A stretch of 46,004 bases of DNA, from the NCBI GenBank assembly GCA_903844825.1, contig CAIMVC010000388.1:1-46004 (forward strand), in the 5' to 3' direction. This document shows positions 24,623 to 46,004 of this stretch, piece by piece. The notes beneath the pieces are model-generated. The model saw nothing but the letters and a program-made list of their open reading frames with translations, was not told the DNA's origin and did no database searches. Source of the DNA: an uncultured Burkholderiales bacterium (lineage in GTDB: Bacteria; Pseudomonadota; Gammaproteobacteria; Burkholderiales; Burkholderiaceae_C). Positions within the stretch are counted from its first letter, which is position 1. Each line of letters begins with the position of its first letter. The translations under genes and the position numbers were made by a program.

Positions 24623-24626
<4 letters not shown>
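23649..24626 (-). CDS. tadB: Tad pilus inner-membrane protein TadB
   Basis: Protein of 325 residues with a T2SSF domain. Starts at a GTG (24626) that overlaps the stop of the cpaF/tadA gene (GTGA). N-terminal TM, a second TM pair near residues 95-135, then QLPEALDFIARALRAGHGL and LNFLVIALTIQRKTGGNLTELL, characteristic of TadB, and two C-terminal TMs. Partner of TadC in the pilus platform. Confidence 0.92.
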
Positions 24627-26082
<1,456 letters not shown>

Positions 26083-26107
<25 letters not shown>

Positions 26108-27237: not shown

Positions 27238-27245
27238 GGTTGTGT

Positions 27246-27713: not shown

Positions 27714-28243
27714 AGGGTTTGCCTCATGGTGCTGCTGATGGGGCCGAAGGTCAGGGTCGGTGAGCTACCGACCACGTTAGACAAGAAGCCTGCAAAGTGC
27801 AGGGGATGCTGGTAGCCGGTGGCGGTGACGCTGACCAGATTGATGCGGGTGGCGCTCGTCACCGTGGCGTCTGCCGTGGTGCGCTGGGAGCGGTGTGTCG
27901 CTGGCGCGTTGAGGGCGTCGCTGACCGTCACGCTAAAGCCGCTCGCAGAAAATCCCGGCAGCAAGGCCGTGCCGCTGCAGGGTCTGGTGCTGCTCAGGCT
28001 GGCGTGGGTGAGCAGGCACCCGGCTTCGATGTGGCCAGTTCCGGGTGCGCGTGTCGAGAGATAGCGGGCGGCGCTGTGGACCTGGTTGACCAGCACCTTG
28101 TAGGCCGCAATCGCCAGTGAAAATTCCACGCTGGCCAGCGTCAGAAACACCAGCAGCGGCAGCAGCAGGGCCAGCTCGACCAGCACCGCACCCTGTGCCT
28201 GTCGGGCGCGCCCGTGCCTTGAGTGCTTTGTTTGACGCGTCAT
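27710..28243 (-). CDS. TadE-like pseudopilin
   Basis: Protein of about 177 residues. The ATG at 28243 overlaps the TadG stop (ATGA), so it is preferred over the ORF's longer form. Basic leader followed by QGAVLVELALLLPLLVFLT, the TadE-family membrane segment with the conserved Glu. The exported part has a Cys pair (GCLLTH, RPCSG). Paired with the next TadE-like gene, as in many Tad loci with TadE and TadF. Confidence 0.86.
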   Translation of the reverse strand: MTRQTKHSRHGRARQAQGAVLVELALLLPLLVFLTLASVEFSLAIAAYKVLVNQVHSAARYLSTRAPGTGHIEAGCLLTHASLSSTRPCSGTALLPGFSASGFSVTVSDALNAPATHRSQRTTADATVTSATRINLVSVTATGYQHPLHFAGFLSNVVGSSPTLTFGPISSTMRQTL

Positions 28244-31183: not shown

Positions 31184-31190
31184 GGCCGGT

Positions 31191-32006
31191 TCACCGTTCT
31201 TCTAGCCGAACACGCTGGGTGCCGCGAAATTCTTCGATGCCCGGGCTGCGCCCTGCTCGCGCTCTGGCACTGGCCTTTGAGGGCGGTGCTGCAAGCTGTT
31301 GCGCCGGCTGCGCAGCGTGGCCTGGCTCGCGCAGCAAATCATCCAGGCGTGTGCCATCCGATGCCAATTGACTGTGGTCCAGTTCGTTGCGAAGTGCCAG
31401 CGACAAGCTGCCCACGCTGCGGGCCAGATCAAGGCGTTCCGCCTCTGTCGGCGACAGCTCCAGCGTGACCGCATTGACGACCTTGGGCTTGGCCGGATCG
31501 CCGGCGGTTTCCTGCGCCACCGCCAGCACCTTGACCCTGGCCAGAACAATTTTTGAGAAGGGATCGTTACGGCCATCGCGGGCGCTCACCAGCACGTCGA
31601 CATAGCTGCCAGGCAGTGCAAATCCGGCCACGCCAATCACGTCATTGACGCGCACGGTGATGGCCCGCTTGCCGGATTCGAGTGTGGCCGAGAGGCCGCC
31701 TTTGACATCGACCGGCGCCAGCCTGGACTCGAGCACCGGCTCGCCTGGCACCATGGTTTGTCGGGCCACGCGGCCGATGACTTTTTCGATGCCATCGAAG
31801 GCACCTTGTGGCGCTGCGGCCGCTGGCCAGGTCAGTGTGCGAACTTGATTGGCCAGCAAGGGCAGGCCCGAATCAATCGTGCTGGCAGCCACCACGACCC
31901 GCGGACCGCTCAAGCTGGCGCCACCGAGGCCGACCCAGCGCGCCACCAAAAAGACGGCAACCGCCCCCATCAAAAGGGCGATTGAAATCAGCGTCGAAGG
32001 TCTCAA
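31191..32006 (-). CDS. cpaB: Flp pilus assembly protein CpaB/RcpC
   Basis: Protein of 271 residues, apparently starting at a TTG (32006) since no in-frame ATG precedes the N-terminal TM (ISIALLMGAVAVFLVARW). A SAF-like domain (VVVAASTIDSGLPLLANQV) and RcpC domain (AITVRVNDVIGVAGFALPGSYVDVLVS) follow. Probably modulates the secretin in the periplasm. 34 bp downstream of flp. A TTG start could limit its level compared with the pilin. Confidence 0.9.
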   Translation of the reverse strand: MRPSTLISIALLMGAVAVFLVARWVGLGGASLSGPRVVVAASTIDSGLPLLANQVRTLTWPAAAAPQGAFDGIEKVIGRVARQTMVPGEPVLESRLAPVDVKGGLSATLESGKRAITVRVNDVIGVAGFALPGSYVDVLVSARDGRNDPFSKIVLARVKVLAVAQETAGDPAKPKVVNAVTLELSPTEAERLDLARSVGSLSLALRNELDHSQLASDGTRLDDLLREPGHAAQPAQQLAAPPSKASARARAGRSPGIEEFRGTQRVRLEER

Positions 32007-32040
32007 AAAATATCGCCCAGCCTAGCGTGTTCGTGCGCTA

Positions 32041-32268
32041 TCAGCCGCCGTTAGCGCTGGTCAGTGCGCTTTTTATTTTTGTAAATGTCACACCGAGTTC
32101 CGTGCCCAAGGCGCCGAGAACGGTCACCAGGACCACAGCGATCAGGGCGGCGATCAGGGCGTATTCGATCATCGTGACGCCGCTTTGTCGCCTGCCAAAT
32201 CGGCTTGTATGTTCACTTTGAGGGCGGGCGATCGGCGATTGGGACATGGGGTGGAAAATTTTTTTCAT
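32041..32268 (-). CDS. flp: Flp-type pilin
   Basis: Major pilin precursor of 75 residues. The leader ends at G30, and the mature protein would begin VTMIEYALIAALIAVV, with the conserved Glu at mature position 5 followed by Tyr, as in Flp pilins. A short polar C-terminus ends in GG. The leader is a little longer than usual (30 residues). First gene of the Tad operon; no strong Shine-Dalgarno is seen. A five-unit 11-bp repeat array lies 46 bp upstream. Confidence 0.93.
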   Translation of the reverse strand: MKKIFHPMSQSPIARPQSEHTSRFGRRQSGVTMIEYALIAALIAVVLVTVLGALGTELGVTFTKIKSALTSANGG

Positions 32269-32314
32269 GGCAGTCTTTCATTAAAAAAAAACGGGGTGTC
32301 AACAAATGCAGTTC

Positions 32315-32369
32315 AAGTGGAAATCAGGCGGAAATCAAGGTGAGATCAAGGTGAGATCAAGGTGAGATC
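32315..32369 (-). repeat. 11-bp tandem array upstream of flp
   Basis: Five adjoining 11-mers. Plus-strand copies in order: AAGTGGAAATC, AGGCGGAAATC, then three identical AAGGTGAGATC. Read toward flp, the three perfect copies are distal and the two divergent copies proximal, ending 46 bp before the start. The one-turn period places every copy on the same DNA face, as for a cooperative activator or repressor. Confidence 0.8.
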
Positions 32370-32377
32370 AATGGAAA

Positions 32378-32448
32378 AAAAAGACCAACGAACCGAGTCA
32401 ATAAAAGCTCAACCGCTGCGGAATGGATCATGTTGAGCAGGTCTTTTT
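32378..32448. promoter_or_regulatory. Nested inverted repeat
   Basis: An outer 9-bp pair AAAAAGACC/GGTCTTTTT (32378-32386, 32440-32448) encloses an inner 7-bp pair GCTCAAC/GTTGAGC (32407-32413, 32432-32438). The inner stem leads almost directly into the outer 3' arm and T-run on the plus strand, so it could act as a terminator or structured leader. Direction and function unknown. Confidence 0.45.
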
Positions 32449-32787
32449 CTGTCAACGACGAAGCTCATGTATTTCGTTAGCAAATGTTTTTTCAGCACAC
32501 TGCATTGGCCCTGTCTTTGCGTGTGCTGTCGATGTCCTGTCACCCGTGCGCGGGCATCTGTCCTGCGTCCGCATCGGCCTCGCCGTGCACTGAACCCACG
32601 TGCCTTGTGCTGCGTTCAGATGGCTTTTTGGCGTGTGCGTGTTAACCATGCAAGCCGTACGGCGCATCGGTGCATGCGTCGATCCGGGCCGTGGGGTAAC
32701 TTTGCGTAAGAGCGTTGGTCGAGCTTTTTTGAGCGCGATTGAGCGATGTAAATTTCTTGTCACCTTAACCACTGATGGAGAAAAACC

Positions 32788-33315
32788 ATGACATCTCGTT
32801 TCATTGCTACCCTTGCACTGTCTTGCCTCTGTGCCGTCGCGGCCAACGCGCAAACCACGGTAGGCCAGGCCTTCAACGTAAGTACCACATTCACCTCGGC
32901 ATGCGTGACCAACAACACCTCGCCTGCCACGCTGGACTTTGGCGCTTACACCGCCTTCGGCTCAGCCGCCAATGCTGCGCCCACCAGCACCATCAGTTTC
33001 AAATGCTCACGCGCGCTGACCTTGATCAGCGCCGTGTTTGACAGCTCCGGCACCGTCGCCAGCAGCGGCGCTGCGGGCAGCACGCCTACAGCAGGCGGCG
33101 TGGTTGCCGGCTTGCAATACACGCTGGCTACCGCTGCGGCCGTGAAGTCCACCACCGGCACGGCTGCTTCGGCTTCGGCCCTGGGGACTGCGGACATCTT
33201 TGACTACGTGGTCACGGGTAGCATGGCTGCGGGTCAGCCGGGTTGCATCAGCAGTGGCAACAGCGGTGACCGCTGCTCGGCGACGCAGACCCGCACCCTG
33301 ACCCTCACGTACTGA
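32788..33315 (+). CDS. Csu-type major fimbrial subunit (spore coat U domain)
   Basis: Protein of 175 residues with a signal peptide cleaved near AANAQ. The mature part matches SCPU/Csu pilins, with strands around FTSACVTNNTSPATLDFGAY, STISFKCSRALT, DIFDYVVTGSM and the terminal donor/pocket strand TRTLTLTY. Paired Cys residues are present. First gene of a chaperone-usher operon, the place of the major subunit CsuA/B. Strong Shine-Dalgarno upstream. Confidence 0.88.
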   Translation: MTSRFIATLALSCLCAVAANAQTTVGQAFNVSTTFTSACVTNNTSPATLDFGAYTAFGSAANAAPTSTISFKCSRALTLISAVFDSSGTVASSGAAGSTPTAGGVVAGLQYTLATAAAVKSTTGTAASASALGTADIFDYVVTGSMAAGQPGCISSGNSGDRCSATQTRTLTLTY

Positions 33316-33337
33316 CTCGACGGGCCCGGGGCGTCAC

Positions 33338-33772
33338 ATGCTTGCTGTTGCCGTGTCGGCATGGCCTCGCGCTCGCGCCAGGCTTGTCGTTTTCGGGCTT
33401 GGCCTGTGTGTGCTGCTGCCGGGCCTGGCGCAGGTGGCGCAGGCCGGACACGCCAGTGCCAGCTTGTTGGTCAGCGTCAAGCTCGTGGCCAGTCCTGCCA
33501 AGGTCTTTTGCACCAGCCAATCGGGTACGGGCAACTTTGGCGCTGCGGTCACCGTGGTCTGCTCGACCGGGGCGGTGGTCGGTATCGCCGTGCCCGAGCG
33601 GACGGCGAGCTTGCCCGCGCATGGGGGTGCGTTTGAGTACCTGATCCCCATGCCGCGTGGCGGCAAGAACTTCATCACGGTCGATACGCAGGCCATCTCC
33701 GGGACCGTCACCGGCTGGCAGGTCGTGCGCTTCGCGGATCGCGACTATGTCGAACTTACTTTAGGTTGGTAA
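33338..33772 (+). CDS. Small exported protein of the Csu-type operon, unknown
   Basis: Protein of 144 residues with an N-terminal hydrophobic signal (cleavage near QVAQAG). The mature part is rich in beta-prone residues, with two Cys (VFCTS, VVCST) and a C-terminal VELTLGW that resembles the last strand of a pilin. I do not recognise a definite family. Placed between the major subunit and the chaperone, where Csu loci encode minor pilins CsuA/CsuB, so a minor pilin or adaptor is likely. Its stop overlaps the chaperone start (TAATG). Confidence 0.75.
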   Translation: MLAVAVSAWPRARARLVVFGLGLCVLLPGLAQVAQAGHASASLLVSVKLVASPAKVFCTSQSGTGNFGAAVTVVCSTGAVVGIAVPERTASLPAHGGAFEYLIPMPRGGKNFITVDTQAISGTVTGWQVVRFADRDYVELTLGW

Positions 33773-34551
33773 TGCTAAAAGAACCATCTTCCCTTGTGGC
33801 GCCAGTTGCCGCACGTCGGACCTTGCAGCAGGCACTGCTACTGCCTGCCTTGTTGACTGCCATGCTGCCCTGGCCGCAGGCCCAGGCCGGGCAGTTTTCG
33901 GTCTCGCCGGTGCGCATTCACATGGCCAGCCGCGACCGTGCGACGGCGATCACGCTGACCAACGAGGGCGATACCGAACTGGTCATGCAGGCTGACATCT
34001 ATCACTGGAAGCAACAAGTCGATGGACAAGACGATCTGGTGCTCAGCGAGGACATGATTTTGTCGCCGCCTATTTTGAAATTGCCACCGCGTTCGCGTCA
34101 GGTGGTTCGTCTGGCGATGCTGCGCCCGGTGGCTGCTGGCGTGCAGCAAACCTACCGCTTGATCGTGCGTGAAATTCCCGAGGCGCGGGAGACTGAAAAC
34201 GCCGTGAAGCTGCAAATCGCCATGGCGTTTTCCCTGCCGGTTTTTATCTCCCCTGCGGGCGTCAGGCGGGACCTGCAGTGCACTGCGCAGCGCGGCCCTG
34301 TCAAAGAGGTGCGTGCCGTGTGTGAGAACCAGGGCAGCGCCTATGCGCAGCCGATTGACTTTGTACTCAACAGCGCGGGCGGTACCCGGCTCGCCGGCAG
34401 CCAGACCGGTGGCTATGTGCTGCCGGGCATCCGGCGCGGCTTTGATTTGTCAGCTGCGTCTGGTGAGCCCATCGCACCCGGTGCGGCGCAATTGGTGGTC
34501 AGGCAGGACAACGGCTCGGTTCAGACCTTTGACGTTGCGATTCCGGAGTAG
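33772..34551 (+). CDS. Periplasmic pilus chaperone (Csu/FimC family)
   Basis: Protein of 259 residues starting at the ATG at 33772, which overlaps the upstream stop; a TTG two codons earlier is not needed. Signal peptide ends near AQAGQ. Immunoglobulin-like chaperone domain 1 has VSPVRIHMASRDRATAITLTN and PPRSRQVVRLAML with the basic/hydrophobic subunit-binding strands. Domain 2 follows, with a Cys pair (LQCTAQ, VCENQ). Holds pilin subunits for donor-strand exchange at the usher. Confidence 0.9.
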   Translation: MLKEPSSLVAPVAARRTLQQALLLPALLTAMLPWPQAQAGQFSVSPVRIHMASRDRATAITLTNEGDTELVMQADIYHWKQQVDGQDDLVLSEDMILSPPILKLPPRSRQVVRLAMLRPVAAGVQQTYRLIVREIPEARETENAVKLQIAMAFSLPVFISPAGVRRDLQCTAQRGPVKEVRAVCENQGSAYAQPIDFVLNSAGGTRLAGSQTGGYVLPGIRRGFDLSAASGEPIAPGAAQLVVRQDNGSVQTFDVAIPE

Positions 34552-34556
34552 GGGGC

Positions 34557-37049
34557 ATGGGCCTGTCACGGTGCCGCTGCGTCGCAGCGGCAATCGCCTG
34601 GGGCGCCTTCGGTGCCGCGATCGCGGGCGTGGCGACGCTAGACGCGACGCCGCCTGATTCCCGCGATCCGCTCGAAGCGCTGCCGACGCTAGCCGAGCCG
34701 TCATCGTTGACGGCGGCTGCTTCCGGGGCTGCCCCTGCTGTCCGGCCGCGCGCCAGTGAAATTGACCCGATCAACGCAGACCGCATGCTGCCGCTGGAGG
34801 TCACAGTCAATGGCGCTAAAGCGGGTCTGTGGGTCTTTGCGCAACGCGCCGGGGAGTTGTACGCCACGCAAGAGGCGTTTGATGAGTGGCGCGTGAACCG
34901 CCCGCCAGGCCTTGCGGCGTTTGAGGTGCGTGGCAGCCCTTATTTTGCTATCTCGGCCGTGGCCGGCTTTCGCGCGCAACTCGACGCCGAGAGTCAGTCG
35001 CTGGCGCTGTTTTTTGCACCCGAGGCGTTTGCTGCCACGCGTTTGCTGCAGGCGCGTTTGCCCAAGCTGGTGCTGGACCCGACCTTGCCCAGTGCCTTTT
35101 TGAATTACGACCTGAACTACAACCGCAGCTTTTTGCGCGCAGCGCCTAGCCTGCAAAACCTGGGCGCTCTGGGGGAGTTGGGCCTGTCCAGCGGCCATGG
35201 GGTGGCGACGACGAGTTTTGTGGGGCGCAACCTGGCTGGCGAACAGGCGCTGGGCGGGCGTGCTGACTGGGTTCGGCTGGAGAGCAGCTTTGTCAGGCAT
35301 CTGCCCGAAAGCAACCAGACCTTGCGGCTGGGCGACAGCATCACGCGGGGCGGCATGTTGGGTCGCCAGGCGTATTTCGGTGGCATTCAGTTTGGCAGCA
35401 ACTACAGCCTGAGTCCTGGTTTTGTCACCCAGCCGCAGCCTGCCCTGGGGGGTCTGTCATCGGCACCTTCTACGGTGGAGTTGTATGTCAACGATGTGTT
35501 GCGGCAAGTCTCGGGCGTGCCGACCGGGCCATTTGCGCTGGAGAACCTGCCGGTCCTGACGGGCCAGGGAGAAGCTCGGCTGGTGGTGCGCGATCTGCTG
35601 GGCCGCGAGACCGTGATCGTGCAGTCGTTTTTTGCCAATCCGCAGTTGCTGGCGCAAGGCCTGAGCGACTGGAGTGTGGCCAGCGGGCGCCTGCGTCGTA
35701 ATCTGGGCAACCCGGACAGCAGCTATGGCGCCGCTTTTGGTACGGGCCTGTGGCGCTACGGTGTCAACAACAGCCTGACCCTGGAAGGCCGGGCAGAGGC
35801 CACTCGCCGCTTGCGCAACGCGAGCCTCGGTCTGGTGGCGTCCTTGCCCTGGCAGACGCTGGGCCGCGCCGCCTTTGGCGCATCGCATGCGGATAGCGAA
35901 GGCAGTGGCCGGCAATGGTTGCTGGGTTTTGAAAAGCAGGACCGCCATGCCGGCGGCTCGCTGCAAGCCCAGGGTGCCAGCGCGCACTTCAGCCAACTGG
36001 GTCAGGAGGTGGCGGCGCCTCGACTTCAGGTGGCCGGCAACGTCAGCTACTTCACCGAGTCGCGGGGCGCCCTGGGCGCGGGCTTTGCCAGCATCAGCTC
36101 CTACGCCACGCCACTTCGGGGGGCGCAGCGCGTGAGCACGGCGTCATTGAATTACGCGGTGAAGGTAGCCGACCGGGCCAGTCTGAACTTCACCCTCAGC
36201 AAGGTCTTCTCAGAGGCCCGGGGCACAGCCATTGGCGTGACGCTGGTGATGCCCCTGAGTGGCAAGGTCATCAGCACCGCGTCCTTGCAGCGGCGCGGCA
36301 GTGAGCAGGATTTTTTGGCCACGGCTTCCATGACGCCTGACCTGGACCAGCCGCTGGCGTGGCGGCTTTTGGCGGGGCGGCAGCGCGAGGTCAACCGTGC
36401 AGAAGGTGGGCTTTACTACACCGGGCGCTATGGCCAGCTCAGTGGTGACCTGAGCTCATCGAGCAACCAGACGGCCGTTCGCCTGGGGGCCATGGGCGCG
36501 CTGGTGCTTGCCGACAGCCATGTCTTTGCGACCTCGCGGATTGATGACAGCTTTGCCGTGGTCGAGCTGGCCGGCTACCCCGATGTCGGTGTGGGTCTGG
36601 GCAGCGCCATGCAGACCCGAACGAACAGCCAGGGCCTGGCTTTGCTTTCGCGCCTGGTGCCCTACCAGGAAAACGCTATCCGGCTGGACCCCTCGGAGGT
36701 GCCACTCGGTGCCGAGCTCGAGTCCCTAGAAAAGATCGGCGTGCCGCGTCAGCGCAGCGCGGTCAAGATTGTTTTTCCCGTGCGCACCGGGCGGGCCGCC
36801 TTGCTGCGCATCGTCATGGACGACGCCGAGCCGGCGCCGGCCGGTGCCACCGTGAGCCTTGCCGGCCAGAGCGAGGTGTTTTATGTGGCCAGGCGCGGCG
36901 AGGTTTTCGTCACGGGTCTGCAGGCGAGCAACCGCCTGGTTTTGACCTGGCAGGGACGGCGCTGCCTGATCGAGGCCAGTTTGCCGGCACCCTCTGCCGA
37001 GGAGGTCGTCCGGATCGGGCCACTGAACTGCAAGGCGGGTGGTGCATGA
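34557..37049 (+). CDS. Outer-membrane fimbrial usher (CsuD/FimD type)
   Basis: Usher of 830 residues. Signal peptide (about 1-24), then a Ser/Pro/Ala-rich stretch, the N-terminal chaperone-binding domain (LPLEVTVNGAKAGLWVF), and the 24-strand pore (YDLNYNRSF, FALENLPVLTGQGEARLVVRD). The plug domain and C-terminal domains end with a Cys pair (RRCLIE, LNCKAG). Size and motifs are typical of PapC-type ushers of the Csu branch. Starts 5 bp after the chaperone gene and overlaps the tip gene by 4 bp. Confidence 0.93.
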   Translation: MGLSRCRCVAAAIAWGAFGAAIAGVATLDATPPDSRDPLEALPTLAEPSSLTAAASGAAPAVRPRASEIDPINADRMLPLEVTVNGAKAGLWVFAQRAGELYATQEAFDEWRVNRPPGLAAFEVRGSPYFAISAVAGFRAQLDAESQSLALFFAPEAFAATRLLQARLPKLVLDPTLPSAFLNYDLNYNRSFLRAAPSLQNLGALGELGLSSGHGVATTSFVGRNLAGEQALGGRADWVRLESSFVRHLPESNQTLRLGDSITRGGMLGRQAYFGGIQFGSNYSLSPGFVTQPQPALGGLSSAPSTVELYVNDVLRQVSGVPTGPFALENLPVLTGQGEARLVVRDLLGRETVIVQSFFANPQLLAQGLSDWSVASGRLRRNLGNPDSSYGAAFGTGLWRYGVNNSLTLEGRAEATRRLRNASLGLVASLPWQTLGRAAFGASHADSEGSGRQWLLGFEKQDRHAGGSLQAQGASAHFSQLGQEVAAPRLQVAGNVSYFTESRGALGAGFASISSYATPLRGAQRVSTASLNYAVKVADRASLNFTLSKVFSEARGTAIGVTLVMPLSGKVISTASLQRRGSEQDFLATASMTPDLDQPLAWRLLAGRQREVNRAEGGLYYTGRYGQLSGDLSSSSNQTAVRLGAMGALVLADSHVFATSRIDDSFAVVELAGYPDVGVGLGSAMQTRTNSQGLALLSRLVPYQENAIRLDPSEVPLGAELESLEKIGVPRQRSAVKIVFPVRTGRAALLRIVMDDAEPAPAGATVSLAGQSEVFYVARRGEVFVTGLQASNRLVLTWQGRRCLIEASLPAPSAEEVVRIGPLNCKAGGA

Positions 37050-37984
37050 CGGGCCAAAGCGCTGGCCCATGGCGCCTGCTCTGGCCCTGGCTGGTGAGGC
37101 TGCTCGCGAGCCTGGGCCTGAGTTTTATGAGCACGGCGGCACACGCGGTGATCACCTGCAGCCTGTCTGCACCGGTGGCCGTGAACTTTGCCTATGTGTC
37201 TGCCACGTCCAAAACCCGCGCTGGCAACGTGCAGCAGGGCTCGGTGACGGCCAACTGCACCCGGACCTCTGCCGCCGACCCGACCACCGTGACCTTGTCC
37301 GCCAGCAATGGCCTGTATGCCAGCGGCCAGGGCAACAACGTGCGCCAGGTTTTCGGCGGCACCAATTTCCAGATCGCCTACGACCTTTACCAGGACTCGG
37401 CTTGCAGCCTGAGCTGGCGTGACCAAAAAAATAGCACCATCTCGGCGACTTTGTCGGGAACCGCCTTGAACACACCCGTGTCGGCGACTTTTCCCTATTG
37501 GGCTTGCAAGTTGGCAGCGCAGACGCTGACCAGCTACCCGTCGGGCCTGTATTCCGACCGCGTGGACCTGGTGCTCTATGCGGCGCGCACCGAGGTGGCG
37601 ACCTCGTCCCTGAATGTCAATATCTACGCGCCAGCCGTGTGCAGCATCAGCAACGGCCCCAGCCAGCTGACGTTCAGCTACAACGCCTTCAGTCCCACGG
37701 CGGTTTTTGCGGGGACGAGTTTTAGAGCCAACTGCACCAACTTTTTGCCCTACACGCTGGCGTTGAGTCCGGTCTCGGGCGCGGTGGGTGGTTTGCGCTA
37801 CAGCCTGGGCTTGAGCCTGAGCGCGGCTGGCTCAGCCAGCAATATCGGCCCCGTCAGCCTGGATGCTGTGGGTAACGCCACCGGCACGGCCACCCATTAC
37901 ATCAATGGCGCCATGGTGGCAGGCCAGCCCGGTCAGGCCGGCACCATCGTTCCCCAGCCGCACACCCTGACCATCACTTACTGA
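37046..37984 (+). CDS. Two-domain SCPU fimbrial tip protein (CsuE-like)
   Basis: Protein of 312 residues with a signal peptide cleaved near AHAVI. Two spore-coat-U-type domains are visible: one from about 30 to 165 (NFAYVSATSKT, VTANCTR, FPYWACK) and one from about 175 to 312 (VCSISNG, FRANCTN, HTLTITY). Two domains are expected of a CsuE-like tip adhesin. The end matches the major subunit terminal strand. Last gene of the operon. Confidence 0.85.
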   Translation: MTGQSAGPWRLLWPWLVRLLASLGLSFMSTAAHAVITCSLSAPVAVNFAYVSATSKTRAGNVQQGSVTANCTRTSAADPTTVTLSASNGLYASGQGNNVRQVFGGTNFQIAYDLYQDSACSLSWRDQKNSTISATLSGTALNTPVSATFPYWACKLAAQTLTSYPSGLYSDRVDLVLYAARTEVATSSLNVNIYAPAVCSISNGPSQLTFSYNAFSPTAVFAGTSFRANCTNFLPYTLALSPVSGAVGGLRYSLGLSLSAAGSASNIGPVSLDAVGNATGTATHYINGAMVAGQPGQAGTIVPQPHTLTITY

Positions 37985-38016: not shown

Positions 38017-40167
38017 TTAGAGGGGCATGGCCAGCCGCAGTCCCAGGGTCCAGTTTCGGCCGGGTGCCGGTTCATAAAACTGGGACGAGGCTTGGTTGAC
38101 GATGACGGAGCCCGTGTAGCGCTTGTCGCTGAGGTTGTCGACGCGGGCATAAGCCGTCAAGGTACTGGTGCCTAAGCGCCAGCCCTGGCTGGCTTTGAGG
38201 TTGAGTGTGGTGTAGCCGTCGGCAGCGGCGCTGTTGTTGTCGTTGGCGTAGAGCTTGCCCGCGCGGGTGAGCTCGGCACCGACCTGGCTGCCCAGGCGTT
38301 GTTTGGGCTTGGGACCATCCTGCACCTGGCTGGACCAGAGCAGTTCCGAGAACAAAAAGTTTTGCGGGATGCCGGGGATCTTGTTGCCTTCAGATACCGT
38401 GGTTATGTTGAGGCCTGACCCACTGGTGAAGCCTTGCGAGTAGCGCGCGTTGATCATGGAGGCCGACAAGGTCGCGCTGATGTGCGAATTGAGCAAGGTG
38501 CGGCCGGCCAGTTCCCAGCCCGTGCGCAGGGTGCTGGGTGCGTTTTTAAATGTGGAGTTGCCGCCCTCGCTGCTTTGCACCACGATTTCGTTGCTGGACT
38601 TGATCTGAAACAAGGTGAAGTCCAGGCGCGACTGCGGTGCCGGCGCCCATTTGCTGCCGAGTTCATAGTGCTGGCTGCGGGAGGCGTTGATCGTAGTGTT
38701 GAAGATCGGCGCGCGGGTGCCGCTGTAGGCCACTTCAGCCAGGGTTGGCGTCTCAAAGCCCTTGCCGTAGTTGGCATACAGGTTCAGGGCATCGGTGGCG
38801 TGGTAGCTCAGGCCCAGCACGGGATTGGTGGCCCGGTACTTCACGGCGCCGCTGCCGTTGCCGTCGCTCAGGTAATGGTCGGCGCTGTTAAAGCGCACCG
38901 CGCTGCGGCGCAGGCCGGTGACCAGGGATACTTTTTCGGAGACCAGGGCCGTGGCCTGAAGAAAGAAGTCGCTGTTGCTGGCCTGGTTGTCTTCGTTGCG
39001 GGTGGTGCTGGTTTTTTCGCCCAGGGCCGCGGCGCCGGCCTGACGCTCTTCGCGCGACAGATCGAACTCGTAGCCCGCCACCCAGGTCACGGGGATCTGG
39101 GCGATTTTCGTTTTGGCGTTGTACTGCAGCCCGGTGCCGTAGTAGGCCCGCTCAAGCCCGACCCAGGCGCCCGTCGGCGTGACGCCAAAAATGCCGGCCT
39201 GGTACTGCAAATTACTGCGCCGGCCGTAGTAAACACGGGCGGTGACCGAGCGCTCGGTGTCGATGTTGTGCGTGAGCGAGCTGCCCAGCTGGTTTTGCGA
39301 CACGATTTTTCGCACACGCCGGCTGACAGCATTGGTGCCGGCTAGCTCAGGGTCGGCGGCCAGTTGCTGCGCCGTCAGGCCCAGCGGGTCTTGCGCCAGG
39401 GGCATGTCAAACAGGTTGAGCACCACATTCACGCGCGTCTTCTCGTTGGGCTCGAAGCTCAGTTTGCCGTTGAACTGTTTGCGCTCGGCCTGGCTGTTGG
39501 CGCGAAAGCCGTTGGTCTCAAAGGTGCTGTAGTCAGCCACCAGACCGTAGCGGCCAACGCGTCCTGCATATTGCCAGTCCGAGCGCTGCATGCCGAAGGA
39601 GCCGGTGTAGAGCTGCGCGCTGAACTCGGCTTGCTCGGGTGCTTCTCGGGTGAAAGCCTGGATCACGCCGCCCGAGGAGTTGCCATACATTTGCGCCAGC
39701 GGCCCGCGCAGCACTTCGATGCGCTCAATCGAGGGCAGCGCGATCGACGAGCCCTGCGCCTGGCCGTCGGGTGTGGTGGCCGGAATGCCATCGACCAGCA
39801 GGCGAATGCCCCGAATTCCAAAAGCCGACCGGGCCCCAAAGCCGCGGATCGAGACCTGCAAGTCTTGCGCGTAGTTCTGTCGGTTCAAGATGGTCAGGCC
39901 AGCTACCCGGTTCAGGGACTCCGACAAATTGACCTGCGGTCCGGCGCTTTCAATGGTGTCGCGGTCGATCGACTCGATGGCGGCGGGCGTATCAAAGCTG
40001 CGTTGCTGCGCACGCGAGGCCGACACCACCACCTCGCTCAGGCTTTGAGCGCTGGCCCCCGCGCAGGCAGTGGCTGCTGCGATTGCCAGAATGCTCTGGC
40101 GCCAGAAGGTTGGGGTAGGGGTATGAAGTGGGCGGCGCGGCTGCATGAGGTGTGTCCCGGGTGTCAT
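38017..40167 (-). CDS. TonB-dependent receptor resembling PQQ importer PqqU/YncD
   Basis: Outer-membrane receptor of 716 residues (or 709 from the ATG at 40146). Signal peptide, TonB box region, plug with INLSESL-like NLSESLNRVAGL, LNRQNYAQDLQVSIRGFG, and GIRGIRLLVDGIPATTPDGQ, then a beta-barrel ending YEPAPGRNWTLGL and a terminal hydrophobic strand. These blocks, and GSVIVNQ near the end, align by memory with E. coli YncD, reported as the PQQ uptake receptor PqqU. A PQQ dehydrogenase three genes upstream makes that role plausible. Last gene of the cluster. A lanthanophore or other ligand is the alternative. Confidence 0.8.
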   Translation of the reverse strand: MTPGTHLMQPRRPLHTPTPTFWRQSILAIAAATACAGASAQSLSEVVVSASRAQQRSFDTPAAIESIDRDTIESAGPQVNLSESLNRVAGLTILNRQNYAQDLQVSIRGFGARSAFGIRGIRLLVDGIPATTPDGQAQGSSIALPSIERIEVLRGPLAQMYGNSSGGVIQAFTREAPEQAEFSAQLYTGSFGMQRSDWQYAGRVGRYGLVADYSTFETNGFRANSQAERKQFNGKLSFEPNEKTRVNVVLNLFDMPLAQDPLGLTAQQLAADPELAGTNAVSRRVRKIVSQNQLGSSLTHNIDTERSVTARVYYGRRSNLQYQAGIFGVTPTGAWVGLERAYYGTGLQYNAKTKIAQIPVTWVAGYEFDLSREERQAGAAALGEKTSTTRNEDNQASNSDFFLQATALVSEKVSLVTGLRRSAVRFNSADHYLSDGNGSGAVKYRATNPVLGLSYHATDALNLYANYGKGFETPTLAEVAYSGTRAPIFNTTINASRSQHYELGSKWAPAPQSRLDFTLFQIKSSNEIVVQSSEGGNSTFKNAPSTLRTGWELAGRTLLNSHISATLSASMINARYSQGFTSGSGLNITTVSEGNKIPGIPQNFLFSELLWSSQVQDGPKPKQRLGSQVGAELTRAGKLYANDNNSAAADGYTTLNLKASQGWRLGTSTLTAYARVDNLSDKRYTGSVIVNQASSQFYEPAPGRNWTLGLRLAMPL

Positions 40168-40292
40168 TTTTAGTTAGTAAAGCAGGCTTCTTCTATAACA
40201 CTTTGGAATCTATTTGGTTGTGTTCGCAGTCGCGCCTGTCGGGTTCAGTTGTCATGGGCCGTTCGGTCAGCGGCCTTGTGCAAGCACGTCGC

Positions 40293-41093
40293 TCAAGGCA
40301 TGGCCTCAAAGCCCTTGCCGGCCAAGCTCTGCTTGACCTGGGGGCCAAGCAGGTAGGCCATGAGTCGCTTGGCTTCGCTCTGGTTGGGTGCGCCCGTCAC
40401 AATGGCTGCGTCGTAGCGTGTCCACACTTGCAGCGAGGCCGGTAAGGCGCCCGCCAGTTTGGCGCCCTTGGCCACCAAAATCTCGTTGATCGGGTAGACA
40501 CCGATCTCAACGTCGCCGAAGCCGACGGGCGCCACGGGATTGTTGCCCGTGCCAAATTGGGTTTTTGCGCTGATCGCCGAACTCATGCCCAGCCGCTCGA
40601 ACAGCGCCTTGACCTGCACACCGCCCGGGTTTTCGGCGGGGTCGGCGTAGATCAGGGTCTTGGACTGAAGGATGGCTTGCTTGAAGGCTTCGGGGCTTGA
40701 CAGATCGGGGGCCGGCGCGGCTTGCGGTGTCGCTACGCCTAGACCGGTTCGACCGAGTGCCAAGCGGGAATCCTTTTGCATCTGGCCCGCCCTGTCCAAC
40801 TCGCTGATGACCTCTTCGGCGGCAATCACGACATCCGGATGCTCGGAGCCATGCAGGTTCGATTTGAGCTGTGAGCGGTTGACAAAACGCACCGTGATGG
40901 CCTGACCGGTGTCCTTTTCAAACTTGGCCAGCGCTTCGCTGACTGCTTCTTTCAGCGGGGTCAGGCTGAGCACGGTCAGCTCTCCCGGGCCGGCGAAGGC
41001 CGGCGTCAGGCTGATCGCCGACAAGGCAAGCCAGCAGGCGGTCTGGCGCAATTTTCGGGACACCGAAGGTAAAACCGACACGGTCGTCAACAT
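40293..41093 (-). CDS. ModA-like periplasmic substrate-binding protein (orphan)
   Basis: Protein of 266 residues from the ATG at 41093 with AAGGA 7 bp upstream. Signal peptide ends near PAFAG. Mature part shows ELTVLSLTPLKEAVSEALAKF, PDVVIAAEEVISELDRAGQM and FGDVEIGVYPINEIL, as in ModA-like (SBP_bac_11) proteins. No ModB or ModC partner is adjacent. A molybdate/tungstate-binding role would fit the molybdenum hydroxylase in the cluster, but family members also bind other anions. 23 bp after the cytochrome gene, so co-transcribed. Confidence 0.75.
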   Translation of the reverse strand: MLTTVSVLPSVSRKLRQTACWLALSAISLTPAFAGPGELTVLSLTPLKEAVSEALAKFEKDTGQAITVRFVNRSQLKSNLHGSEHPDVVIAAEEVISELDRAGQMQKDSRLALGRTGLGVATPQAAPAPDLSSPEAFKQAILQSKTLIYADPAENPGGVQVKALFERLGMSSAISAKTQFGTGNNPVAPVGFGDVEIGVYPINEILVAKGAKLAGALPASLQVWTRYDAAIVTGAPNQSEAKRLMAYLLGPQVKQSLAGKGFEAMP

Positions 41094-41116
41094 GCTCAAT
41101 CCTTGGTTTTTGTTAA

Positions 41117-41470
41117 TTATTTCTTTTCACCGGCCACCACGTAGGCGAACAGGTTGCCGATTTGCTCTTGCGACAAAACGCTCTTCCATGGAGGCATGCT
41201 GTTCTTACCATTGCTGACCGAGTTGATGAAGCGTGGGCGCTGTTTGGGGGGGAACGTTCTGAGGTCAAAAAAACCGCCACCGGCATCGACCATTTTCTGG
41301 CCGTGACATACCGAACAGTTGTCGGCGTAGAGCTTGGCGCCAGCGGCAATTTGGTCCGGCTGGAATGTCTGTACCTCGTCCTGCGCGAGGACGGCGGCGC
41401 AAGACAGCGCGCTGATGGCGACGCAAATGGTTGCGCGAACAAAAAGACTTTTCAAGATTTTCACGGTCAT
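41117..41470 (-). CDS. Periplasmic cytochrome c, one haem
   Basis: Protein of 117 residues from the ATG at 41470 (AAGGA upstream), with a signal peptide ending near VLAQD. One CxxCH (C52, C55, H56) and a probable axial Met at M92 (NSMPPW). Size and form match the soluble cytochromes that accept electrons from PQQ alcohol dehydrogenases. A strong terminator lies between it and the dehydrogenase gene. It can link both the PQQ and molybdenum enzymes to the respiratory chain. Confidence 0.9.
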   Translation of the reverse strand: MTVKILKSLFVRATICVAISALSCAAVLAQDEVQTFQPDQIAAGAKLYADNCSVCHGQKMVDAGGGFFDLRTFPPKQRPRFINSVSNGKNSMPPWKSVLSQEQIGNLFAYVVAGEKK

Positions 41471-41483
41471 GGAATCCTTATGT

Positions 41484-41518
41484 AAAAACAGCCGGTGCGA
41501 AGACCTCCGCACCGGCTG
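41484..41518 (-). terminator. Strong hairpin terminator/attenuator after the PQQ dehydrogenase
   Basis: CAGCCGGTGCG and CGCACCGGCTG form a perfect 11-bp stem with an 8-nt loop, followed on the minus strand by TTTTTA. It starts 18 bp past the dehydrogenase stop and just before the cytochrome start. It should reduce read-through so the dehydrogenase is made in excess. Confidence 0.85.
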
Positions 41519-41536
41519 CCGGAAGGCTAAAGCGGA

Positions 41537-43219
41537 TTACTGAGGGACTGAAAATGTCCAGACAGAGCCGCCTTGCGGCACGTTCTTGACATCGGGTCCT
41601 ACCCAGCGACGGCCCGGGCCACCCAGACCTGACAACACGGTGACGTATTGCTTGCCTTTGTGGCTCCAGGTGATGGGGCTGGCGTTGATGCCCGAGCTGG
41701 TCTGGAATTGCCAGAGTTGCTTGCCGGTGTCGGCGTCCAGTGCAATGAATTCGCCGGTATGGCGACCGGTGAACAGCAGGCCGCTGTCAGTGACCAGCAT
41801 GGACGCCCAGTTGGCATGGTCATTGAGGGGTACTTGCCACTTTGGCTTGCCGGTCATCGGGTCAATGGCGCTCATGTAGCCGTGTGGCTCGCCTGGCTCG
41901 AAGTCGATCTTGATGTCCTTCATGCCGACCCAGCGGGTGCCGGGCTTGTAGGGCAACTCAAGGTCAACCATCGCCATGCTGGACCACATGTGCATGGTGT
42001 TGGTATAAAGCAGACCCGTCTTGGGGCTGAAGGCCGCATGCTGCCAGTTCTTGGCACCCACGATGTTGGGCCAGAGCTTGACGTTCTCGCCGGCGCGCAT
42101 TTTCCTGGCCACGTCGGTTTCGACCGGACGTCCGGTAGCCATGTCGATGTGGCTGGCCCAATTCACGCGCTCATAAGGGTTGGCCGCCAGCAGTTTGCCG
42201 TCAGCGCGGTCCAGCACATAAGAAAATCCGTTGCGATTGAGTTGCATCACGGTCTTGCGCATCTTGCCGTCGACCTTGACATCGCCCAGGATCAGCTCCG
42301 ACACGGCATCGTAGTCATACAAATCGTTCGGTGTGAACTGGTAGTGCCAGACGATTTCGCCGGTCTTGGGACGCACGGCAATCACCGAAGCGGTGTAGAG
42401 GCTGTCGCCACCCCGGTACTTGGGGTTCCAGGGGCCGGTGTTGCCGGTGCCCCAATAAACGAGGTCCAGTTCCGGGTCATAAGAGCCGGTGATCCAGGTG
42501 CTGCCGCCGCCGTTCTTGTAGGAGTCTTCCACCTTCCAGGTGTCGCCGCCTTTTTCACCCGGCGCTGCCGTGGTGTAACGACGCCACAAGGCCTTACCCG
42601 TGGCTGGGTCGTAGCCGGCGATGAAGCCGCGAATACCGAACTCGGCACCGGACACGCCGGTGATCAGCACGCCGTTGGCCACCACCGGAGCGCTGGTGAT
42701 CGAGTAGCCGTCTTTCCAGTCGATGACCTTGGTTTTCCAGATTTCCTTGCCGGTCTTCTGGTCCAGGGCAACCATGTAGGCGTCCAGTGTGCCGCGCAGC
42801 ACCATGCCGTTATAGAGCGACACGCCCTTGTTCGACACGCCGCAGCAAACGATGCGCGGGGTATCGGGATCAAAGTCCACGGGTGTGCGCCAGATCTGCT
42901 TGCCGGTCAGGGCGTTGATGGCCACGGTCCACTTGGCATCGCTGACGTACATGACACCGTCATACACCAAAGGTTGCGCTTGCTCGCCGAAGTCGTTTTC
43001 GAGTGACAGCGACCAGGTGGGCGTGAGTTTCTTGACGTTCGTCTTGTTGATCTTGCCGAGTTTGGAGAAACGCTGCTGGCCGTAGCCCATGCCGTAGGTC
43101 AATACGTTGTCGGTATTGGCACCATCCTTTTTGAGGTCGTCAGCGGTTTGCGCCTGGGCGGCAAAAGCCGCAGCCAGGGCAAGGCTCAAGGCCAGTGTGG
43201 TCATCTTCACTTGTTTCAT
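41537..43219 (-). CDS. PQQ-dependent alcohol dehydrogenase with lanthanide-type signature
   Basis: Periplasmic quinoprotein of 560 residues, signal peptide ending near AAQAQ. Features of the methanol/ethanol dehydrogenase family: vicinal disulfide C125-C126 (IVCCGVSNKG), metal ligand E193 (GAEFGIRG), Asn block GTGNTGPWN (260-265) and catalytic D302. Two residues later D304 (LYDYDAV) supplies the extra Asp found in XoxF/PedH/ExaF-type lanthanide enzymes; calcium enzymes have Ala or Ser there. Tryptophan-docking repeats (ALDxxTGKxxW) are visible. AAGGAGA precedes the start. It oxidises an alcohol and reduces cytochrome c; which alcohol is not readable. Confidence 0.9.
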   Translation of the reverse strand: MKQVKMTTLALSLALAAAFAAQAQTADDLKKDGANTDNVLTYGMGYGQQRFSKLGKINKTNVKKLTPTWSLSLENDFGEQAQPLVYDGVMYVSDAKWTVAINALTGKQIWRTPVDFDPDTPRIVCCGVSNKGVSLYNGMVLRGTLDAYMVALDQKTGKEIWKTKVIDWKDGYSITSAPVVANGVLITGVSGAEFGIRGFIAGYDPATGKALWRRYTTAAPGEKGGDTWKVEDSYKNGGGSTWITGSYDPELDLVYWGTGNTGPWNPKYRGGDSLYTASVIAVRPKTGEIVWHYQFTPNDLYDYDAVSELILGDVKVDGKMRKTVMQLNRNGFSYVLDRADGKLLAANPYERVNWASHIDMATGRPVETDVARKMRAGENVKLWPNIVGAKNWQHAAFSPKTGLLYTNTMHMWSSMAMVDLELPYKPGTRWVGMKDIKIDFEPGEPHGYMSAIDPMTGKPKWQVPLNDHANWASMLVTDSGLLFTGRHTGEFIALDADTGKQLWQFQTSSGINASPITWSHKGKQYVTVLSGLGGPGRRWVGPDVKNVPQGGSVWTFSVPQ

Positions 43220-43236
43220 GCTTCATCTCTCCTTTT

Positions 43237-43242
43237 GTTATA
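43237..43242 (-). promoter_or_regulatory. Candidate -10 element of the PQQ dehydrogenase promoter
   Basis: TATAAC read on the minus strand, just upstream of the ribosome binding site. The -35 position 17 bp upstream is poor (TCTGTT) and abuts the repeat array, suggesting activator-dependent transcription. Confidence 0.4.
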
Positions 43243-43263
43243 AAACTTTTTCGAATCGGAACA

Positions 43264-43318
43264 GAACTGGAATCCAACTGGATTCAAACGGGAATCAAAC
43301 GGGAATCAAACGGGAATC
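43264..43318 (-). repeat. 11-bp tandem array upstream of the PQQ dehydrogenase
   Basis: Five adjoining 11-mers. Plus-strand copies: GAACTGGAATC, CAACTGGATTC, then three identical AAACGGGAATC, flanked by one degenerate unit on each side (43253-43263, 43319-43329). Read toward the gene, three perfect copies are distal and two divergent ones proximal, ending 44 bp before the start. The stop codon of the upstream Mo subunit gene lies in the array. Confidence 0.8.
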
Positions 43319-45656
43319 AAACGGAACCGAGTTGTTGACGGATCGGCAACTGGCGGATGCGTTTGCCGGTGGCTGCAAAAATCGCGTTGCACAAGGCCGG
43401 TGCCACGGGTGGCAGGCCGGGCTCGCCAACACCGCCCGGGGCGACGCTGTAGTCGGACGGGGCCAAGTGGACCCGGATTGAGCGAGGCGCTTCGCTTTGG
43501 CGCAGCATGGGGTGGTCGTGGAAGTTGCTTTCAACCACCCGGCCGTTCTTGAAGCTGATTTCACCGTGCATGGCCAGACCCAGGCCCATGATCGCCGCGC
43601 CTTCGAGTTGCGAGCGGATGCGCTCGGTGTTGACTTGCGGGCCGCAGTCAATGGCCATGTCCACGCCAATAATTTTGATGCCGCCCTTGGCGTCGACTTC
43701 CACCTCGATCGCGGCGGCGGCATAGCTCATGAAGGAGTAGGCCACTGCAATGCCCAGGCCGCGGCCTTTGGGCAAGGAGCGTCCCCACTTGGCGCCCGCA
43801 GCCGCGAGTTCGACCACGCCGCGCATGCGTCCGGTGTCAATGGGGTAGCGCTCTGGATTTTCGCCGTAGTTGGTGTTGTCGGACAGCGAGCGGGGGTCCA
43901 GCCGACGTGCGGGGCCGATCAGGTCCACCAGGTACTCTTTCGGATCGCGCCCAGCAGCGGCTGCGAGTTCGGCCACAAAACACTGCACGGCAAAGGCGTG
44001 CGGAATGTTAAAGACGGCGCGGAACCAGCCAATGCGGGTGTGCGCTTCGGCTTCGGGCGTTTCGATGCGAACGTTCGGAATCTGGAACGGCACGTTGATG
44101 GCCGTCATACCCATTTCGCCAGCACTCAACATTTTTGCGCCGGCCATGAAGGTCGAGCTGATCGACGGTGCGGCCGAACGGTGCAGCCAGGCCAGCGGTT
44201 TGCCATTGGCGTCCAGCGTGCTTTCCAGGCGCTCGACAGCCACTGTGTGGTAGTAAGCGTGACGCAAGTCGTCTTCGCGAGTCCACTGCACCTTCACGGG
44301 CGTGCTGCCCATTTCCTTGGCGATCAATGCAGCTTCGGCCACAAAGTCATGCTTGGACTTGCGCCCAAAGCCGCCACCGAGCAAGGTGACGTTGAGTTTG
44401 ACCTGCTCCGACTTCAGGCCGAGCTTGGCAGCCACAAAGTCGCGGGCAGCTTGCGGGTTCTGCACCGGAGCCCAGACTTCGCAAACACCATCGACGATGC
44501 GCGCAGTGGCCACGGGTGGCTCCATCGTGGCGTGGGCGATGTGCGGCAGGTAGTACTCGGCCTCGACGCGCTTGGTGCCCTGTGCCAGGGCGGCCATGGT
44601 GTCACCATCGTTGCGTACGGCTTTGCCGGGCTTGCGGGCTGAGGCCTCGAGTTCCTTGCGGTAGTCCACCGAGTTGTAGCTGGCGTGAACGCCGTCGTCC
44701 CACTCGATCGTCAGAGCCTCGCGCCCCTTCAGGGCGGCCCAGGTGTTTTTGGCCACGACCGCAATGCCACCGAGTGGGTGAAACAGCGCCGGCAAGGGGG
44801 TGCTTTGGATTTCGACGATTTTCAGCACGCCAGGCACCTGCAGGGCCTTGGCAGCGTCATAGCTCTTGACCTTGCCACCGAGCACAGGCGGGCGGGCCAC
44901 CACGGCGTAGACCATGCCGTCAAGGCGGATGTCGATGCCGAACTGGGCACGGCCGCGCACGATGTCGGGGCCGTCGATGAGCCGCACGTCGGCTTTGCCG
45001 ATGTAGCGGTACTCGGAAGGCAGTTTGAGCCGGAGTTTGTTGCTGTCGGGCACGGGCAGCTTGGCCGCGTCCAGGGCGACCGCGCCAAAACCCATCTTGC
45101 GACCGGTTGGCAGGTGCACCAGTTGGTGGTTGATGGCTTGCACGTCACTGGCCAGCACATCCCACTTGGCGGCGGCTGCAGCTTCGAGCATGGTGCGCGC
45201 AGCGGCACCGGCGCGGCGCAGTGCCATACCCGAGTGTCGAATGCTGCGGGAGCCGTCAGTGTTTTGGTTGCCGTATTTCTTTTCGTCGGCGGGCGCTTGC
45301 ACGACGCGCACGCGCTTGAGATCGGCGTCGAGTTCGTCGGCCACCAGCATGGGGATGCTGGTGCGCACGCCCTGGCCCATCTCCGAGCGGTGGCACACCA
45401 CCGAGACCAGGCCGTCGGCCCCGATCGAGACGAATACCAGCGGGCTGTCGACCACGCCACCGGGCATGCGGTCGCCACCAAACTTGGGCGGCGGCGCAGG
45501 CGCAGCGGTTTGCGCGAAGACTTCGCCGGCGCCAGTGACGGCCAGCAGCAAGCCGCCCGAGCCCATGGCTTTGAGCCAGCTGCGGCGCGAGCTTGTGGAA
45601 GCGATGCTCAGCGCGCTGGTGACGCTGTCGTGTTGGGTCAAGGCGGTGGTCTTCAT
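43317..45656 (-). CDS. Molybdopterin-binding large subunit of periplasmic aldehyde-dehydrogenase/IorB type
   Basis: Protein of 779 residues from the ATG at 45656, which overlaps the 2Fe-2S stop (ATGA). A long Tat-type leader has [11 protein letters not shown] before a hydrophobic stretch ending near EVFAQ. Cofactor-binding HRSEMGQGV (about 90-98) and LLGGGFGRK (about 423-431), plus the C-terminal [17 protein letters not shown] with the catalytic Glu. Only moderately similar to the large subunit at 20414. Together with the small subunit and the neighbouring cytochrome it could oxidise the aldehyde produced by the PQQ enzyme. Substrate is inferred. Confidence 0.9.
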
Positions 45657-46004
45657 GCTTTGGCTCCCCGTTGTGCGGCGACGGTCTTGATGGCTGCGCG
45701 GATGCGGGTGTAGGTGCCGCAGCGGCAGATGTTGCCGCTCATGGCTTGGTCGATATCGGCATCGGTCGGGTTGGGCTTGGCTTTGAGGAGGGCCACGGCC
45801 GACATGACCTGTCCGCCCTGGCAGTAGCCGCACTGCGGCACGCTGGCTGCGACCCAGGCCGCTTGCACCTGAGCGCCGAGCTTGTCGGTTTCCAAGTGTT
45901 CAATCGTCGTGACTTGTTTGCCGGCAACGGCAGACAGGGGGGTGACGCAGGAGCGCACAGCGTCATCGCCAACGTGAACGGTGCAGGAGCCGCACAAACC
46001 GGCG
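45653..46004 (-). CDS. 2Fe-2S subunit of molybdenum hydroxylase (partial at window edge)
   Basis: C-terminal 117 codons of an IorA/CoxS-type small subunit; the start is beyond the right end. Visible cluster residues: CGSC of the ferredoxin-like domain with a later Cys (VRSC), and CGYC plus ICRCGTYTR of the helical domain. It forms a heterodimer with the downstream large subunit, overlapping it by 4 bp. The gene order small then large subunit matches the pair at 19965-22681. Confidence 0.92.

Follow-up and report, generated by a model that had tools for sequence, protein, structure and literature searches.

In acetic acid bacteria, alcohols are converted to acids in the periplasm by a pyrroloquinoline quinone (PQQ) dehydrogenase and a molybdenum (Mo) aldehyde dehydrogenase, which we take to be the enzymes of PDB entries 8gy2 and 8gy3. 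In Pseudomonas putida, the ped cluster (PedH, PedF and PedG) comprises a lanthanide-type alcohol dehydrogenase, a small cytochrome c and a periplasmic binding protein (PMC12997753), and an IorA/IorB-like Mo pair, PP_3621-PP_3623, has been linked to PQQ alcohol oxidation (PMC7188995). It has been reported that Escherichia coli scavenges PQQ through the receptor PqqU (YncD) and uses it without PQQ synthesis genes (Munder et al. 2025, PMC12124388). In this study, we analysed a 46,004-nucleotide stretch of DNA from an uncultured Burkholderiales bacterium (GCA_903844825.1, contig CAIMVC010000388.1), called the window below. On its minus strand, between 38017 and 46004, six genes in a single direction encode a [2Fe-2S] small subunit and a large subunit of a Mo hydroxylase, a PQQ alcohol dehydrogenase, a single-haem cytochrome c, a ModA-fold periplasmic binding protein and a PqqU-type TonB-dependent receptor. 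Profile matches confirmed all six gene kinds named in an earlier first-pass annotation. As a whole, the locus probably serves a PQQ scavenger in the periplasmic oxidation of alcohols. Sequence shows the gene identities, a PqqU signature, a lanthanide-type metal site and, across genomes, a repeated linkage of PqqU to quinoprotein-type genes, and no PQQ synthesis genes were detectable in the genome.

The locus differs from each of the described systems. In the available text of the report on E. coli PqqU (PMC12124388), synteny of PqqU is described only with pqq synthesis genes, in four Burkholderiales genomes, and a dehydrogenase linkage as in the window is not. The ped cluster has PedG, whereas the binding protein of the window is of the ModA type, and the terms PqqU, molybdenum and xanthine are absent from the accessible part of the ped review (PMC12997753). 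The cytochrome of PP_3621-PP_3623 is annotated as an alcohol dehydrogenase cytochrome subunit, and the text available of PMC7188995 mentions no importer. The best match of the large Mo subunit lies in the acetic acid bacterial pair; in contrast, the window dehydrogenase has no haem domain and matches 6zcv better (410 bits, against 294 bits for 8gy2). While PQQ scavenging is already published, the linkage of PqqU to dehydrogenases and the ModA-like partner look new.

PqqU has been defined as an E. coli PqqU homologue with an aromatic residue (Y/F/W) at position 99, R304 and R365 (Munder et al. 2025, PMC12124388). The window receptor carries F116, R317 and R375 at Y99, R304 and R365, and its K287 keeps K274. 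This signature was present in 19 of 21 aligned PqqU-type sequences, G055 and G056 carrying Ser at 99 (G denotes a genome, L a dehydrogenase-related or receptor locus and C a contig). Three comparator TonB receptors, all weaker matches, failed it, each of them at 304. The sole strong PDB relatives of the receptor are the two E. coli YncD/PqqU chains (Table 1), followed by FecA at 50 bits. The resemblance to PqqU claimed earlier is thereby better supported than it was; the receptor is a PqqU homologue with the signature, not an NCBI equivalog, and we infer that it would itself transport PQQ.

The window dehydrogenase passes the NCBIfam model for PQQ methanol/ethanol dehydrogenases (Table 1). It contains the vicinal pair Cys125-Cys126 and the metal ligands Glu193, Asn260 and Asp302. 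In quinoproteins of the lanthanide type (XoxF/PedH-like), the catalytic Asp is followed two residues later by another Asp, and the window enzyme has Asp304 at this place. Both Asp residues were found in 112 of 112 readable copies among 116 related dehydrogenases. The closest solved relative, 6zcv, is presumably PedH. These results suggest that the window enzyme probably uses a lanthanide. It has no haem domain of its own, and the single-haem cytochrome c encoded by the adjoining gene is likely to be its electron acceptor.

We next consider the supply of PQQ. The window is contig C388 of a metagenome-assembled genome (G000; 4.66 Mb, 464 contigs, 88.9% complete), in which neither PqqC nor PqqD was matched and no match to PqqE exceeded the cut-off. 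The first-pass annotation had proposed dependence on external PQQ from the window, and the genome search supports this; the bacterium seems, by its gene content, unable to make PQQ. A panel of 25 genomes with a related dehydrogenase was then compared (26 chosen handles, namely G000 and 25 of 79 loci, two of them in one genome). PqqC was not found over the cut-off in 17 of the 25, among which G061 has a 49.7-bit PqqC match. A full PqqU-type receptor (at least 413 bits) was present in 16 of these 17, the copy of G046 being cut by a contig end. Among the eight panel genomes with PqqC, a PqqU-type receptor (at least 335 bits) was found in five; the other three are one genome each of Bradyrhizobium, Phaeobacter and Salipiger. 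In 87 genomes of the genus, PqqC was present in 14, PqqU (E<=1e-60) in 45 and a TIGR03075 enzyme over the cut-off in 24. Among PqqC-negative genomes, PqqU occurred in 11 of 12 with the enzyme, compared to 27 of 61 without it (Fisher 0.003; related genomes, uncorrected). Matches to the glucose/sorbosone-type dehydrogenase family (GSDH) occur in 84 of the 87, so that their co-occurrence is uninformative and only their adjacency was used. PQQ scavenging for the window dehydrogenase is thus well supported by gene content, and PQQ import, also claimed earlier, is supported by the signature residues, the gene neighbours and the co-occurrence with the lack of PqqC.

In the proposed pathway, TonB would power the uptake of free PQQ by the receptor across the outer membrane. 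The dehydrogenase would be loaded in the periplasm with PQQ and, probably, a lanthanide ion; it would oxidise an alcohol to an aldehyde, and the small cytochrome c would receive the electrons. The aldehyde would most likely be taken to the acid by the neighbouring, Tat-exported (twin-arginine translocation) Mo/[2Fe-2S] enzyme, which would also feed a cytochrome. The substrate, the coupling of the dehydrogenase with the Mo enzyme and the role of the binding protein are the parts of this scheme that we infer. It suggests that PQQ from other cells would decide which alcohols such a bacterium oxidises.

Several observations weigh against this explanation. The receptor has Asn537 at R536 of PqqU, and it misses the cut-off of the NCBIfam PqqU equivalog NF041535 (507.7 of 1200 bits). 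Apart from the window, PqqU was not seen beside this core, and the two closest relatives carry it on another contig. In PqqC-positive genomes of the genus, PqqU showed no association with the enzyme (6 of 12 with it, 1 of 2 without). PqqU was also found in 27 of the 61 PqqC-negative genomes without a TIGR03075 enzyme over the cut-off, which indicates that it also serves something else. In G069, which has the enzyme, neither PqqC nor PqqU was found. The panel and genus counts span related, non-independent genomes, and kinship was uncorrected. Finally, the order and strand of the Mo pair and the dehydrogenase vary between loci, and a Mo pair is mostly lacking from the flanks fetched for the 79 loci, many of these flanks being cut by contig ends.

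This last point bears on the role of the Mo pair. Along with its Mo domains and the separate [2Fe-2S] subunit, the large subunit has a Tat-type signal (SRRSWL) and a GEPG motif, the Glu of which we take to be the catalytic Glu of the Mo enzyme; these are the marks of the IorB/AldH type. Its best PDB match is 8gy3_C (256 bits), named "large subunit of aldehyde dehydrogenase". An aldehyde therefore fits better than a heterocycle, so that one of the two substrate classes offered by the first-pass annotation gains support and the other fits less well. The similar PP_3621-3623 of P. putida, proposed to be an aldehyde oxidase, increases in response to lanthanum (PMC7188995). Together with the likeness to 8gy3_C, this makes alcohol to acid the likeliest chemistry of the dehydrogenase and the Mo enzyme; the conversion in the periplasm claimed earlier is plausible on sequence. 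It is nevertheless possible, although we consider it rather unlikely, that the two enzymes act on different substrates, the Mo pair being a heterocycle or other hydroxylase with only regulation in common. Of the 79 loci, 13 hold both Mo subunits, in several orders (weakly and on two strands in L058). However, the order small subunit-large subunit-dehydrogenase-cytochrome-binding protein is kept in L033, and dehydrogenase-cytochrome-small subunit-large subunit occurs in L073, L074, L088 and L106, which, together with the aldehyde dehydrogenase as closest PDB chain, favours a coupled oxidation.

The neighbourhood of PqqU was then compared within 3 kb. In the genus, PqqU lies near a quinoprotein-type gene at at least 21 of 46 places (7 of the TIGR03075 type and 14 GSDH), the coordinates coming mainly from PqqU-bearing genomes and several PqqU genes being at contig ends. 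The same was found in 15 of the 22 PqqU-bearing panel genomes (Table 1). No such adjacency was seen in G043, G049 (PqqU at a contig end), G045, G058, G059, G063 or G064; in G064, a dehydrogenase gene is about 6 kb away from PqqU. Three scanned GSDH proteins adjacent to PqqU were over the Pfam cut-off and far under that of the NCBIfam PQQ subfamily, so their use of PQQ is likely and not proven. A PqqU-type receptor adjoins a GSDH-family (PF07995) gene in L150, L151, L152, L154-L157, L160, L161, L223, L225 and L226, several of which have a cytochrome c gene between or beside the two. These are likely PQQ-salvage units of sugar/aldose dehydrogenases. In G113 (L223:6672-13727), a PqqU 72% identical to that of the window is in tandem with another [2Fe-2S]/Mo pair, only 28% like the window's, and this unit is divergent from a GSDH gene and a cytochrome c gene; the same kinds of parts have there been brought together independently.

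The two closest relatives, G041 (the same as G114, with L032/L105) and G042 (the same as G118, with L033), are recorded as Comamonadaceae MAGs; matched by identical receptor coordinates, they apparently belong to the genus of the window. Their dehydrogenases are 88-89% identical to the window's, and their PqqU genes follow a GSDH-type dehydrogenase and a cytochrome c. The earlier statement that PQQ import is built into the same cluster therefore holds for the window and fails for these two. PqqU was either gained beside the cluster in one lineage or lost from it in others. In L108, dehydrogenase, cytochrome and binding protein are followed by a PqqU-type receptor about 5 kb past the latter, and no Mo enzyme was found in the 21.6 kb of this locus. 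One could thus suppose that PqqU is a chance neighbour in the window that mainly serves another quinoprotein, for example of the GSDH type: PqqU adjoins a GSDH gene in G041, G042 and seven further panel genomes, a 125-bp gap separates it from the binding-protein gene in the window, and G000 has three GSDH matches of its own. We consider this unlikely, because an alcohol dehydrogenase gene is found no more than 3 kb from PqqU at at least 7 of the 46 genus places and in 6 of the 22 panel genomes, in independent arrangements, and PQQ once in the periplasm would be reachable by any quinoprotein there. A scavenger that feeds the window dehydrogenase remains the preferred explanation. Tying PqqU to enzymes that it possibly feeds means that such assignments can be supported by neighbours plus residues in apparent PQQ non-makers.

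It has been reported that TonB receptors switch substrate readily (PMC12124388), and several close PqqU relatives occur in genomes without a TIGR03075 enzyme over the cut-off. A cargo other than PQQ, such as a metal complex or the alcohol, is nevertheless improbable for the window receptor, since its signature residues are kept and quinoprotein-type neighbours are found even at 37-45% receptor identity.

The binding protein had been labelled ModA-like and assigned the capture of molybdate for the Mo enzyme. As to the fold family, the label stands: ModA is the closest solved family (1amf, E 2.6e-17 with a four-sequence profile). However, the protein falls under the modA cut-off (46.9 vs 62.5 bits), while its homologue in L108 is over it (69.9 bits). 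The molybdate ligands of ModA are presumably Ser12, Ser39 and Tyr170, and the window protein has Pro48, Arg75 and Pro203 at these positions (numbering from the TTG at 41099). Four homologues likewise lack the ModA set, with Pro in all at the first position, Arg or Pro at the second and Pro or Ser at the third. Furthermore, L108 has the binding protein with no Mo pair found, and profile scans found neither modB nor modC among the cluster genes. The molybdate trap was rejected on the ligand residues and L108, and we consider it very improbable despite the modA-level score of the L108 homologue; the name of molybdate-binder is probably wrong for this conserved protein. Two other proteins of G000 that matched the binding protein, on C85 and C125, were tried as ModA comparators and set aside: one scored below the modA cut-off, no model matched the other at the chosen limit, and their scanned neighbours were an aldolase, a glucokinase and two proteins without a match. 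It is likewise very improbable that pqq genes exist and are missing from the 88.9% complete assembly, for although PqqC occurs in 14 of the 87 genus genomes, it was also not found in G041/G114 and G042/G118, whose listed completeness is 93% and 92%.

In the genus, the only homologues of the binding protein found at 72-74% identity were two in G114 and one in G118, the next best being 34%, and the contig of each also bears a dehydrogenase match. The L108 homologue, 52-54% identical, likewise comes after a dehydrogenase and a cytochrome. PedG, XoxJ and MxaJ are described as binding-protein-like helpers of such dehydrogenases, possibly in cofactor insertion (PMC12997753). Among NCBIfam matches at E<=0.001, no PedG, MxaJ, XoxJ or PqqT model was found for the window protein, and the 21 PDB sequences matching it up to E 10 included no chain of these either; PqqT (9B1V) is the periplasmic PQQ-binding protein of Methylorubrum extorquens. 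An identity with PqqT or PedG was therefore discarded, although a role as PQQ carrier may be shared with PqqT. The predicted fold model (mean pLDDT, a per-residue confidence score, of 50.5) was too poor for use. The protein is placed like PedG, XoxJ and MxaJ and yet belongs to another family. Instead of trapping molybdate, it would assist the dehydrogenase, acting in cofactor loading or in substrate or product binding. More tentatively, and with little probability, the cluster may form a complete PQQ-salvage cassette, in which the binding protein would take PQQ or PQQ-lanthanide imported by PqqU and load the dehydrogenase, as a new kind of quinoprotein helper; this role is the one proposed elsewhere for XoxJ/PedG and PqqT.

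In four orthologues among the related dehydrogenases, the codon of the second vicinal Cys (Cys126 of the window enzyme) is an in-frame TGA: L041 (G050), L040 (G049), L046 (G130) and L044 (G129). This TGA is the sole stop in the 535-557 aligned codons. In a family search of 74 genomes (26 with matches), these four alone have an in-frame stop among the matches listed, and seven orthologues at 75-87% identity encode Cys there by TGC or TGT. A hairpin lies 17-18 nt past the UGA, with the loop CGUGUC in three genomes and GUG in G129; the seven Cys-coding orthologues lack it. Over a fixed 33-nt stretch, its energy is -13.9 in the three and -10.5 in G129, against synonymous-recoding means of -5.5 and -6.4. 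The fraction of synonymous recodings was 0.0005-0.0015 for the three and 0.046 for G129, compared to 0.10-0.44 for the Cys orthologues. Published limits for bacterial selenocysteine insertion sequences are a loop of 3-9 nt, a G in the first two loop positions, a spacing of 16-37 and an energy of -7.5 or lower (PMC13188914), and the hairpin values fall within them. A point against selenocysteine is that the best fold of G129 in a 51-nt stretch is a different one.

SelB was over the cut-off in three of the four UGA genomes and present as fragments in G050. It also occurs in relatives with the Cys form and is thus required but not specific. In G130, G129 and G050, selB-bearing contigs also carry a tRNA-Sec; the 10-kb contig of G049 yielded none. 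The main text of a 2026 inventory of prokaryotic selenoproteins contains no PQQ, quinoprotein or alcohol dehydrogenase, and searches of the open PMC library listed no paper on a selenocysteine quinoprotein. These results suggest that the UGA-bearing dehydrogenases are likely selenocysteine quinoproteins, a candidate new selenoprotein, which is possibly more important than the cluster itself. The vicinal pair also varies in another way: six copies in the tandem dehydrogenase arrays of L060, L061 and L079 have GG, SG, NT, TS or TG in its place, and in some of these the metal-ligand Glu is Asp while Asn and both Asp residues are kept.

Table 1. Positions of the cluster genes, the repeat array and the UGA-bearing dehydrogenase genes, and panel genomes with a quinoprotein-type gene beside PqqU.
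Feature	Location	Strand	Evidence
[2Fe-2S] small subunit of Mo hydroxylase, 5' end cut	45653..46004 (coding 45653-46003)	-	Fer2_2 100.9 bits
Mo-cofactor large subunit, aldehyde dehydrogenase/IorB-like, Tat-type signal	43317..45656	-	MoCoBD_2 116.7, MoCoBD_1 102.3 bits
11-bp tandem array (repeat D1), 5.5 copies, chiefly in the gap between large Mo subunit and dehydrogenase	43265..43324		Tandem Repeats Finder score 92
PQQ alcohol dehydrogenase, no haem domain	41537..43219	-	TIGR03075 603 bits (cut-off 480); 6zcv 410 bits
Single-haem cytochrome c, ATG at 41470	41117..41470	-	Cytochrome_CBB3 52.7 bits; one CxxCH (CSVCH)
ModA-fold periplasmic binding protein	40293..41093	-	PF13531 113 bits; modA 46.9 bits
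TonB-dependent receptor, PqqU type	38017..40167	-	6v81/9c4o 397-398 bits; NF041535 508 bits
TGA-bearing dehydrogenase gene	L041:8249-9853		
TGA-bearing dehydrogenase gene	L040:3464-5134		
TGA-bearing dehydrogenase gene	L044:4510-6159		
TGA-bearing dehydrogenase gene	L046:558-2213		
PqqU adjoining alcohol dehydrogenase, panel	G000, G046, G048, G052, G061, G044		
PqqU adjoining GSDH, panel	G041, G042, G057, G050, G051, G047, G053, G055, G056		

The start codon of the large Mo subunit overlaps the stop of the small subunit as ATGA, and the following gaps are 97 bp (to the dehydrogenase), 66 bp (to the cytochrome), 23 bp (to the binding protein) and 125 bp (to the receptor). The last base of the window, 46004, is the contig end, so that the small subunit is cut and the upstream DNA is out of view. 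Promoter-like sites (2, compared to 1.3 in shuffles) and terminator-like sites (11, compared to 9.0) showed no excess in the cluster, and a single transcript of the six genes is therefore not established by these counts. The array consists of 5.5 copies of the unit AACGGGAATCA; the equivalent gap in L033 is only about 42 bp. A plasmid setting was considered and rejected, as the 277 plasmid records at E<=1e-80 were all below 60% identity.

Copies of the cluster are also found in pieces. In L105 and L032, they lie on separate contigs of one genome. In one close relative (L105; G114 contigs C41, C155 and C161), several copies occur, including a dehydrogenase end before small subunit-large subunit-dehydrogenase, and on two contigs a dehydrogenase match is followed by a binding protein. 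Tandem dehydrogenase arrays were seen in L045-L048, L057, L061, L062, L064 and L107, from MAG records under the seemingly doubtful title of Bordetella parapertussis; they resemble arrays of uncultured betaproteobacteria. Beyond the cluster, 22704-37984 of the window contains minus-strand Flp/Tad pilus genes (T2SSF, T2SSE, secretin, RcpC and Tad) and then a plus-strand chaperone-usher set with SCPU proteins, which converges tail to tail on the receptor gene.

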